DNA from: a virus
Reading direction: 5' to 3' (one strand)
IMG/VR virus record: IMGVR_UViG_3300037827_000484
Coordinates: 1 to 38,619 of that record
Length of the DNA: 38,619 nucleotides
In this document: positions 6,403-38,619 of the stretch, in pieces
Layout: every line of letters begins with the position of its first letter
Numbering within the stretch: position 1 is the stretch's first letter
Program-made: the position numbers and the translations under genes
The notes under the pieces: model-generated
Seen by the model: only the letters and a program-made list of their open reading frames with translations
Database searches by the model: none
What the model was told of the DNA's origin: nothing

Positions 6403-6585
6403 ATGAGAAAAGAAATAATGAAAAAAAATTTAATCATATGTGTTTCACTCATTTTTTTGGGGATTGTTTTCATTCCACAACAGATATATAGATTTAAACA
6501 CCCAGAAATGACAGAAACTCAACTATTTTTAAATTTTTTTAAGGCTTATCTGACAGGAGAAAAATGGAGAAATCAGCATGACTAA
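6403..6585 (+). CDS. Small single-pass membrane protein
   Basis: 60 residues with one membrane span at about 9-27 (LIICVSLIFLGIVFIP) after a Lys-rich N-terminus, so N-in/C-out or an uncleaved signal anchor. ATG 6418 is an alternative start. It ends in a short polar tail. It is a candidate lysis or membrane-modifying protein, as no classical holin or endolysin is visible in the genome. It overlaps the next gene. Confidence 0.55.
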   Translation: MRKEIMKKNLIICVSLIFLGIVFIPQQIYRFKHPEMTETQLFLNFFKAYLTGEKWRNQHD

Positions 6586-11066: not shown

Positions 11067-11104
11067 ATGACAATAACAACCACAAACGCGTTGCCCGCGC
11101 CGGT
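11067..11104 (+). CDS. Major capsid protein, exon 1
   Basis: Codes for MTITTTNALPAP plus the first two bases of a Val codon, after GGAG at 11057-11060. Read straight on it hits TGA at 11109. NALPAPV matches the start I recall for N4-gp56-like capsid proteins, while the rest of that protein begins in the frame at about 11774. The exon ends in CCGGT, which pairs with an internal guide sequence, so splicing restores one frame. Confidence 0.8.
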
Positions 11105-11773
11105 AAAGTGAGTGTGCCGGCCTTAAATCGGAGGTAATTACTTGGAAAGTCTAAGCATAATATGATACAATGTTGTACCGAAAGCAATACAACAAAGGAG
11201 ATATTATGTATGATAACCAGAGCCAAGCAGCTTATGCGTATATTGCTGGCATTATTGATGGTGAAGGTGCTTTTATGATCTCAAGATCAACAAGCGGAAA
11301 AGGAAGGAAAACTCCTTCATATTCACCAAGAATGAAAGTCAGTATGACCACAAAACCTTCAGTAGAGTTCATAAAAAAACATACTGGAATTGGAATTGTG
11401 ACGTATGAGCCGACTCGAAAAAGTAGGCCTACAAGGAAAGGTCTATGGCAATGGCAGATATTTTCACTGAATGATGTGAGAGAGTTTATAAAGCTTATAG
11501 AGCCATATTTAGTTCTAAAACAAGCTCATGCTAAACATCTCAGAGAATATTGTGAAAGATTTACTATCCAAAAGAAATGTATGGATGGTGTGCCAGCCGA
11601 AGAGAGGGCTTTTCGTGAGGAGGCGTATCAAATGATGCGTAAGCTCAATGGAAGGCTCGCAGGCGCAACGACTAACCCCCCCGACATCCGAGAGGATGAA
11701 GTGATAGTCTAAACTTATGGGAAACCATAAGAGAAGAACTCGAAGCGGTTCTTCCGCCCGAAAGGGTCAGTAG
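11105..11773 (+). other. Group I self-splicing intron in the capsid gene
   Basis: The 5' site is defined by P1: GCCGGT (11099-11104) pairs with guide GCCGGC (11116-11121), with the usual U-G pair at the cut. P3: TCGGAGG (11128) with CCCCCGA (11678). P7: GACTA (11670-11674) with TAGTC (11705-11709). P8: CATCC-GAGA-GGATG (11685-11698). P9 is a 7-bp stem with GAAA loop (11714-11731), then stems at 11733-11754 and 11757-11766. Three G residues (11770, 11773, 11785) would end the intron in the right phase; 11773 is preferred. It carries its own endonuclease gene. Confidence 0.88.
11206..11712 (+). CDS. LAGLIDADG homing endonuclease in the intron
   Basis: 168 residues with one LAGLIDADG motif, YIAGIIDGEG (12-21), so it should work as a dimer. 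Such enzymes cut intron-free alleles and spread the intron. The start at 11206 has AAAGGAG at 11194-11200; the in-frame ATG at 11170 has none. The last 14 codons run through the P7, P3 and P8 strands of the ribozyme, so this sequence is constrained both as protein and as RNA. Confidence 0.92.
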   Translation: MYDNQSQAAYAYIAGIIDGEGAFMISRSTSGKGRKTPSYSPRMKVSMTTKPSVEFIKKHTGIGIVTYEPTRKSRPTRKGLWQWQIFSLNDVREFIKLIEPYLVLKQAHAKHLREYCERFTIQKKCMDGVPAEERAFREEAYQMMRKLNGRLAGATTNPPDIREDEVIV

Positions 11774-12716
11774 ATCAGTGAATCGATCGAAAGTAATAGC
11801 TAGACAACAATGGTTTGATAACGTGCTTTTAAGCCGTCCAATGCCAAAGTTGATTCACAAGCAAATGGCAATGAAAAAAGAGCTGCCTCCAAATAGTGGC
11901 CGTATCGCCCGATACAGAAGGTACACAAACTTGCAGACAGCTACAGTACCACTACCTGATAGCGGATTAACGCCACCAGGTCAAGTGTTAAATGCGATCG
12001 ATATTGACGCGAGACTAGACTGGTATGGAACTTATGTAACTATAACCGACCAGGTTATGTTTATCAACCAAGATCCTGTCTTGAATCAAACAGTATCTCT
12101 TTTGGCTCAGTCCATGAGGGAAACCGAAGATGAACTGATTAGAAACATGTTAGCTTCAACTGCTGCGGTTATTAACTGTACAGGTGGGGTTAATGGGGAT
12201 AATCCTACTGAGTTGAGCCGTACAGATATTGACGCTACGATCTTGGCATTGCTAGGTAACGACGCAATGATGATCAGTGACAATATTGAAGGTACGCTGA
12301 AATTCGGTACAGCACCAGTAAGGGAAGCCTTCTGGGGCATGATGAATACAGGTGTTCTTGATGATCTTGAAGCAGTAACTGGCTTTATTTCACAAGCTCA
12401 GTATCCATCAAACATGAACGTGCTTAATGCTGAATGGGGTTCAGTATCGAATATTAGATTCTTGTATAGCTCAAGAGGCTCTACAACTCTAGGTGCTTCT
12501 TTAAATGGAAATACCATTTACAACATTTTTGTAACTGGTCAAGAAGCATATGCGATGGTTGAACTTACAACAGCTACAGCATCGTTTATTTATACACCAC
12601 CAGGCGGACCCACCGATCCACTGAGAAGGTTGCAATTAGGTGCATACAAGTTCGCTCAGGTACCGCGCTTACTGAACGATGCTTGGTTATTTAACCTTCG
12701 CGCAACCCATTCATAG
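11774..12716 (+). CDS. Major capsid protein, exon 2 (N4-gp56-like)
   Basis: Forms the icosahedral shell. The frame is open upstream of the first possible GTG (11778), so that codon is not needed as a start. Stretches such as LLSRPMPKLIHKQMAMKK, PPNSGRIARYRRYTNL and DARLDWYGTYVTITDQV are typical, as I recall them, of N4-gp56-like capsid proteins. Joined to exon 1 the protein is 326 residues if splicing uses G11773 (322 with G11785). It sits between the scaffold-like gene and a beta-rich structural protein. Confidence 0.88.
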
Positions 12717-38331: not shown

Positions 38332-38619
38332 ATGACGTGGCCTACTTCAAACCCTATTGCTCGTGAATTGGATGATTTTTGGAAAGAGAGTCAGTCTTTA
38401 TGGCAACAGTGGTGGTATGAGGCTGATTTAGATACAAAGATGGCCACTGGTCAGCAAGACTATTGGAATACATTCTACAACATCAATTATCGCAATCAGA
38501 AAATTTTAATGTTTAACAAGATTCTTCGTATCATCAACATGATAGGAGGATACCAACGCGATAATAGATTAGCTACTGTTATTGCTCCGTCAGATAATGA
38601 CCCTGATTCTGGCGAGACA
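38332..38619 (+). CDS. P22-like portal protein, N-terminal part (continues at base 2)
   Basis: The ATG at 38332 follows GAGG at 38322-38325. The frame runs MTWPTSNPIARELDDFWKES and onward through the 127-base repeat without a stop, then continues at base 2. It adds 59 residues to the part seen from ATG 17. The helical N-terminus rich in Trp (SLWQQWWYEADLD) fits the outer wing of P22-type portals. Confidence 0.88.
   Translation, partial: MTWPTSNPIARELDDFWKESQSLWQQWWYEADLDTKMATGQQDYWNTFYNINYRNQKILMFNKILRIINMIGGYQRDNRLATVIAPSDNDPDSGET
38493..38619. repeat. Terminal direct repeat, right copy
   Basis: Exact copy of bases 1-127. Removing one copy gives a circle of 38,492 bp and joins the two parts of the portal gene in frame. 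Confidence 0.95.

Follow-up and report, generated by a model that had tools for sequence, protein, structure and literature searches.

A group I intron with a homing-endonuclease gene in the major capsid gene of a phage, and putative degron tails and core-less inserts in related capsid genes

How can a phage produce its major capsid protein from a gene whose reading frame closes almost as soon as it has opened? The question is raised by the IMG/VR viral record IMGVR_UViG_3300037827_000484, analysed here over positions 1 to 38,619 (38,619 nucleotides (nt), hereafter the window). The capsid gene begins at ATG 11067 and its unspliced frame closes after 14 codons (MTITTTNALPAPVK, then a stop); further downstream, a 312-codon frame from GTG 11778 matches PF25209 Phage_capsid_4 (Pfam, E 2e-9). 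We propose, with a probability of roughly 0.95, that the gene is interrupted by a complete group I intron carrying a LAGLIDADG endonuclease gene, that the ribozyme would join 11104 to 11804 and so restore a capsid protein of 316 residues, that the intron spreads by homing, and that the peptide tails encoded by internal introns of related capsid genes would act as degrons.

The junction is fixed by comparison with related genes. A scan with the capsid protein returned 60 related loci (designated by L numbers), most of which have a capsid gene free of introns, and in more than 40 of them MTITTTNALPAPV runs straight into QQWFDNVLLS or a near variant. Because these intron-free relatives read through unbroken, the junction is placed between 11104 and 11804, leaving 11105-11803 as the intron. 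The spliced joint would read GCCGGT followed by ACAACAATGG, its valine codon being composed of GT (11103-11104) and A (11804), and the intron ends in G (11803) at a junction that the intron-free relatives define independently. Intron-free alleles of the exact insertion site, in which GCGCCGGT is directly followed by TCAACAATGG, are found in L004 and L025, as expected of a homing intron; the uninterrupted site reads GCGCCGGTTCAACAATGG. The first-pass annotation, made from the sequence of the window alone, had described a major capsid gene split in phase by a group I intron and an exon 1 of 12 codons and two bases ending at the U-G pair of a 6-base-pair (bp) P1, and these points are supported by the relatives, the covariance model and the covariation. 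Its statement that the unspliced RNA stops after 14 codons was also correct, and it follows from this stop that a full capsid protein requires splicing; unspliced window RNA would yield a 14-residue peptide only. Its 3' splice site, placed at 11774 to give a protein of 326 residues, was wrong by 30 nt. A joint at 11773/11774 stays in frame because it lies exactly 30 nt from the other candidate site, and it is likewise preceded by a G, but it would add SVNRSKVIAR, which is found in no intron-free relative, would cut the last hairpin, which covaries, and would leave the conserved AAGUAAYAG motif in the exon; we give it almost no credence. Hardly any probability attaches either to the fallback that the same annotation had offered, a capsid protein started at GTG 11778 without splicing, the upstream part being a dead insertion. 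This GTG does head an open frame, but it falls within the 3' part of the intron and would add 10 residues that no relative has, the relatives' capsid proteins beginning MTITTTN. A dead insertion is also at odds with the selection on the ribozyme core described below. Splicing would place MTITTTNALPAPVQQW in the virion capsid protein, unlike a start at GTG 11778.

The proposed ribozyme structure of the intron is consistent with this junction. The last base of exon 1, U 11104, pairs with G 11116 of the guide, as does its counterpart in L015 (IMGVR_UViG_3300019996_000012), a locus that shares with the window the insertion site, the structure, the type of endonuclease and the 14-residue length of the unspliced peptide, but whose sequence has diverged with compensatory changes. 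Between the two introns, one C-G pair of P3 becomes U-A, one G-C pair of P9.1 becomes A-U and one A-U pair of the last hairpin becomes G-C, the pairing being kept each time. Helices P3, P7, P8 and P9, which the first-pass annotation had judged drawable, all exist with compensatory changes, and in an alignment of 16 introns (A1) both-sided changes with pairing kept affect 23 of the 35 predicted pairs of the 3' domain. The AAGUAAYAG motif near the 3' end of the intron is conserved as well. Because the Rfam model RF00028 aligned only partly, at a relaxed score, a covariance model of our own (R1) was built from 14 introns of relatives, without the window and without its twin L015. The model matches the 3' catalytic domain of the window with 103.5 bits (E 2e-26) and gives no other meaningful score in the window; since a model that contains neither intron reaches this value at one place, a chance match is excluded. 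The P3-P7-P8 core is thus conserved with covariation, which is seen for P7 and P8 in the alignment and for P3 in the comparison with L015, and these substitutions indicate purifying, covarying selection on the ribozyme core. Several points weigh against a group I intron. An Rfam search of the window at the gathering score found nothing; RF00028, the model family that the first-pass annotation had suggested for a check, does give a match, but at 23 bits it lies below the gathering score of 50, a working threshold that does not define the class, and its alignment is convincing from P7' onward only. In addition, P10 has just 3 bp (UGU/ACA), with no variation relative to L015, P3 contains one mismatch, and P4-P6 were recognised from the motif AAUUACUUGGAAAGUCUAAGC alone, the endonuclease gene separating their two halves. 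The comparative evidence nevertheless supports a real group I intron in the major capsid gene, its junction being in phase, and with the junction derived from the intron-free alleles and the covariation, we infer that this intron is self-splicing.

The first-pass annotation had overlooked the LAGLIDADG gene within the intron. Its product matches the LAGLIDADG profile PF00961 with 25 bits (cut-off 23.1) and contains the motif YIAGIIDGEGAF, and the 3' end of the gene overlaps P7, P3, P8 and P7'. The endonuclease, whose activity is predicted, presumably cuts intron-free alleles such as those in L004 and L025, upon which the intron would be copied in. Among GenBank phages, it has only remote matches, in Streptomyces phages. 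A scan of viral contigs with the endonuclease found no relative, and for this reason the gene is unable to date the insertion. By itself, the window intron is an ordinary arrangement, since group I introns in capsid genes are already known. The precedent is mycobacteriophage LittleE (JF937101), where the intron was established by reverse transcription PCR and N-terminal sequencing and is spliced in infected cells (PMC3706429). Similarly to the window, LittleE has a LAGLIDADG-type endonuclease gene in the intron of the major capsid gene, with a U before the intron and a G at its end, but it differs in the capsid family, in the insertion site and in the endonuclease gene lying on the opposite strand. 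In lactococcal phage Tuc2009, the gene mp4 for the major head protein (NC_002703) is likewise annotated with a group I intron and an endonuclease gene; this endonuclease is of the HNH type, the site is internal, and the frame ends FPAWS, without an Ala-Ala tail. The first-pass annotation had further concluded that splicing gates head production. The capsid protein indeed cannot be made unless the RNA is spliced, but no regulatory element was found, the capsid intron of LittleE is reported to be efficiently spliced in late expression (PMC3706429), and the intron is absent from most relatives. A constitutive, efficient self-splicing intron fits the dependence on splicing equally well, and a regulated gate, as opposed to a constitutive step, seems to us highly improbable.

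The capsid genes of the relatives are rich in introns. About 17 of the 60 carry them, at about 10 places between residues 12 and 183, and some hold two or three. The capsid-gene region of L167 seemingly contains four complete introns (matches at 1846, 2384, 2842 and 3739) and, at 1101, an insert that lacks a catalytic core. The interrupted capsid gene must be the one in use, as the phage records that hold L015, L037 and L039 (34-39 kb) contain a single capsid gene each. To examine the unspliced products, the first internal introns of relatives were translated from the start codon; the relatives had been selected on capsid similarity, irrespective of intron sequence. The exon frame ends in Ala-Ala or Val-Ala in 14/14 of these introns, compared with 0/14 for each of the other two frames; the endings, each followed by a stop codon, include LLVA, LKAA, LLAA, ELLAA, LLKAA, ALLAA, LEAA, ENALAA, LIAA, LELAA and QKAA. 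For ClpXP, no element of the ssrA degron matters more than its terminal Ala-Ala (PMC7652416), and the LAA end of ssrA has LVA among its known variants (PMC9382460). In a wider set, fetched by intron motif, 44 introns have a 5' site defined by P1 and a clear exon frame; 36 of them end in Ala-Ala or Val-Ala, these counts not being independent owing to shared descent. The same loci contain 8,683 other long frames, of which Ala-Ala closes 1.4% and Val-Ala 0.5%. Two tails resemble the E. coli ssrA sequence DENYALAA beyond the last three residues, namely ENALAA in L049 (1570-1600) and DNYAIAA in L147 (minus strand, near 2158 of the reverse strand). The ssrA tag (AANDENYALAA) is added by transfer-messenger RNA, whereas the tails of the relatives are encoded by the intron itself in the exon frame. 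In L131 and L076, the unspliced tail continues past the 3' splice site of a core-less insert and ends, in a shifted frame, within exon 2 (LCAA and LVA, each before a stop). Ala-Ala or Val-Ala tails are likewise carried by related introns in genes that resemble tape-measure genes by eye (L064, L156, L177, L066 and L124).

The proposition that every capsid-gene intron has a tail was ruled out. Three introns at codons 12-13, that of the window included, end without one (PVK, PVK and PNL before the stop), and tail-less introns near the start are found in the window, L015, L039 (its first intron), L114, L142 and L264; Tuc2009 and the FYG-site inserts of 28-36 nt are tail-less too. The window intron may be too close to the start to need a degron tail.

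It could be argued that the Ala-Ala and Val-Ala ends are a by-product of RNA structure or of shared descent. Most tagged introns do share a related LIDLELLAA segment in P4-P5, with which the 20-residue intron tail of L037 ends, and some known introns, such as those of Tuc2009 and of a Nitratidesulfovibrio phage, carry no tail, nor do the FYG-site inserts. Yet every one of the four third bases occurs in the alanine codons of the tails and each of the three stop codons is used, the tail lies in the P1 loop, in P5 or P6, or across the 3' site, and the core is 29 to 67 nt away from the 5' site, a spacing that changes with codon phase and preserves the frame in 39/39 introns; the empty count in the other two frames also speaks against a by-product. 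Tails also recur in unrelated genes. In a P22-type coat gene (L297, MW202674; labelled a short P22 coat protein in GenBank) the exon frame ends YQDAYFLLAA, and in the experimentally spliced LittleE intron (L296) the unspliced frame ends GGWNSVATAAA. Because the alanine and stop codons vary freely, and because the frame is kept while structural places differ and tails recur in unrelated genes, selection appears to act on the tail peptide, and we regard a by-product as improbable. The tails are probably a ClpXP degron that would clear truncated capsid protein made from unspliced RNA. The open-access literature gave no precedent for intron-encoded ssrA-like tails, a weak negative.

A second feature of the relatives is the presence of small inserts that have no catalytic core of their own. 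An insert of 56-59 nt follows TACGGT at residue 88 in L039, L040 and L052; other capsid genes have inserts of 28-36 nt at the TACGGT site or of 32-48 nt at nearby sites. The inserts in L181 and L132 measure 29 or 39 nt. In a set of 22 TACGGT-site inserts, gathered without requiring P10, all 22 end in G. The exon sequence UACGGU forms a P1 with a guide that is GCCGUA in nearly every insert, with U.G at the site. The four bases that precede this guide can pair with the opening four of exon 2, and 84 of the 88 pairs are Watson-Crick (67.7 when shuffled; none of 20,000 shuffles reaches this value). This P10 matches the synonymous third base of an ACN codon in 22/22, with all four pair types. The 3' part of the insert can also pair with the end of exon 2 that borders the next intron, in a further helix (mean length 8.6 bp; 5.8 bp when shuffled, 0/2,000). 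The inserts thus display the U.G-bearing P1, the P10 and the terminal G, but because they have no core they are not classed among the group I introns; they seem to behave as substrates of the group I type. With the covariance model, a complete intron domain was located downstream of the inserts to which it was applied, except in L218, where the contig ends first. Loci that the insert pattern had not fetched were scanned without bias. Where a complete intron follows, 14 such signatures were counted at 6,478 eligible positions, against 24 at 578,511 elsewhere; the 69 candidates of the unbiased scan without a downstream core are mostly chance.

The alternative of ribosomal bypass, or of dead remnants, has in its favour that these inserts are too small for any group I core; in T4 gene 60, about 50 nt are reportedly bypassed. 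Translational bypass was rejected, as there is no landing codon that matches the take-off codon GGU and P10 covaries. The terminal G in 22/22 and the pairing at the synonymous ACN base speak against bypass and remnants alike, as does the single capsid gene in the phage record with L039. Together, bypass and remnants seem improbable. We propose instead that the inserts are spliced, and that the ribozyme of the complete downstream intron, the nearest source of catalysis, probably excises them; one ribozyme core would then remove two introns. In split and trans-splicing group I introns, catalysis and splice sites may sit on separate RNA pieces. The relatives' inserts differ in having no core at all, the nearest one being that of a separate complete intron downstream. 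It is reasonably likely, on the comparative evidence, that both propositions hold, that is, that the introns encode an ssrA-like degron and that core-less introns of 28-59 nt, cut down to P1, P10 and the terminal G and held by the intron-exon 2 helix, are excised by the ribozyme of a complete intron 26-50 nt downstream. For core-less group I introns, the open-access literature likewise gave no precedent, a weak negative. The window's own intron has neither a degron tail nor a core-less insert feature.

Table. Positions of the features discussed, in the window unless a locus is given.
Feature	Position	Strand	Description and basis
Exon 1, major capsid gene	11067..11104	+	13 codons less one base; MTITTTNALPAP+GT; N-terminus identical and unbroken in >40 relatives
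Group I intron	11105..11803	+	699 nt, omega-G 11803 at end; exon junction of relatives, covariance model match, covariation
Exon 2, major capsid gene	11804..12716	+	spliced protein 316 residues; PF25209 Phage_capsid_4; Pfam, reconstruction and tblastn
P1	11099..11121	+	11099-11104 (GCCGGU) with 11116-11121 (GCCGGC), U.G at 5' splice site; sequence reading; identical P1 in L015
P10 guide UGU	11113..11115	+	pairs with exon 2 ACA 11804-11806, 3 bp; sequence reading
P3 5' strand UCGGAGG	11128..11134	+	pairs with 11678-11684, one A.C mismatch; 11129-11683 C-G, in L015 U-A
LAGLIDADG homing-endonuclease gene	11206..11712	+	168 residues, AAAGGAG upstream; Pfam PF00961, open reading frame list
3' catalytic domain	11667..11799	+	model R1; alignment A1
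P7	11670-11674/11705-11709	+	within 3' catalytic domain
P8	11685-11689/11694-11698	+	within 3' catalytic domain
P9	11714-11720/11725-11731	+	within 3' catalytic domain
P9.1	11733-11739/11748-11754	+	within 3' catalytic domain
P9.2	11756-11759/11764-11767	+	within 3' catalytic domain
Last hairpin, then AAGUAAUAG	11773-11776/11785-11788	+	within 3' catalytic domain
Core-less inserts	L039:4943-5000, L040:1129-1184, L052:487-545		capsid gene
Further core-less inserts	L065, L076, L079, L095, L111, L131, L132, L147, L149, L157, L166, L167, L174, L181, others		capsid genes
Tail-bearing loci	L033, L035, L037, L039, L040, L041, L045, L047, L049, L052, L053, L055, L059, L060		capsid gene

Positions 1-127 of the window are repeated directly at 38493-38619 (127 bp), and a portal gene (P22_portal, PF16510) spans the repeat; from this end repeat, the record is probably a complete circular genome. 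Most of the contigs in this analysis are of metagenomic origin. The sole relative of the capsid gene in genome collections is L299 (DLME01000147), from a metagenome-assembled genome of Syntrophaceae, with 92% identity and no intron. It gives a weak hint of a Syntrophaceae host, being a 5.3-kb contig that is possibly misbinned.

The window intron is one more mobile intron in an abundant structural gene, and the introns of its relatives matter more than its own. If their core-less inserts are spliced, they would be a group I counterpart of introns that lose their own catalyst and rely on another RNA; to our knowledge, an intron of 28 nt would lie far below any known group I intron. If the tails are degrons, these selfish introns would limit the harm done by unspliced messages, which would directly explain the survival of introns in genes whose truncated products might poison assembly.
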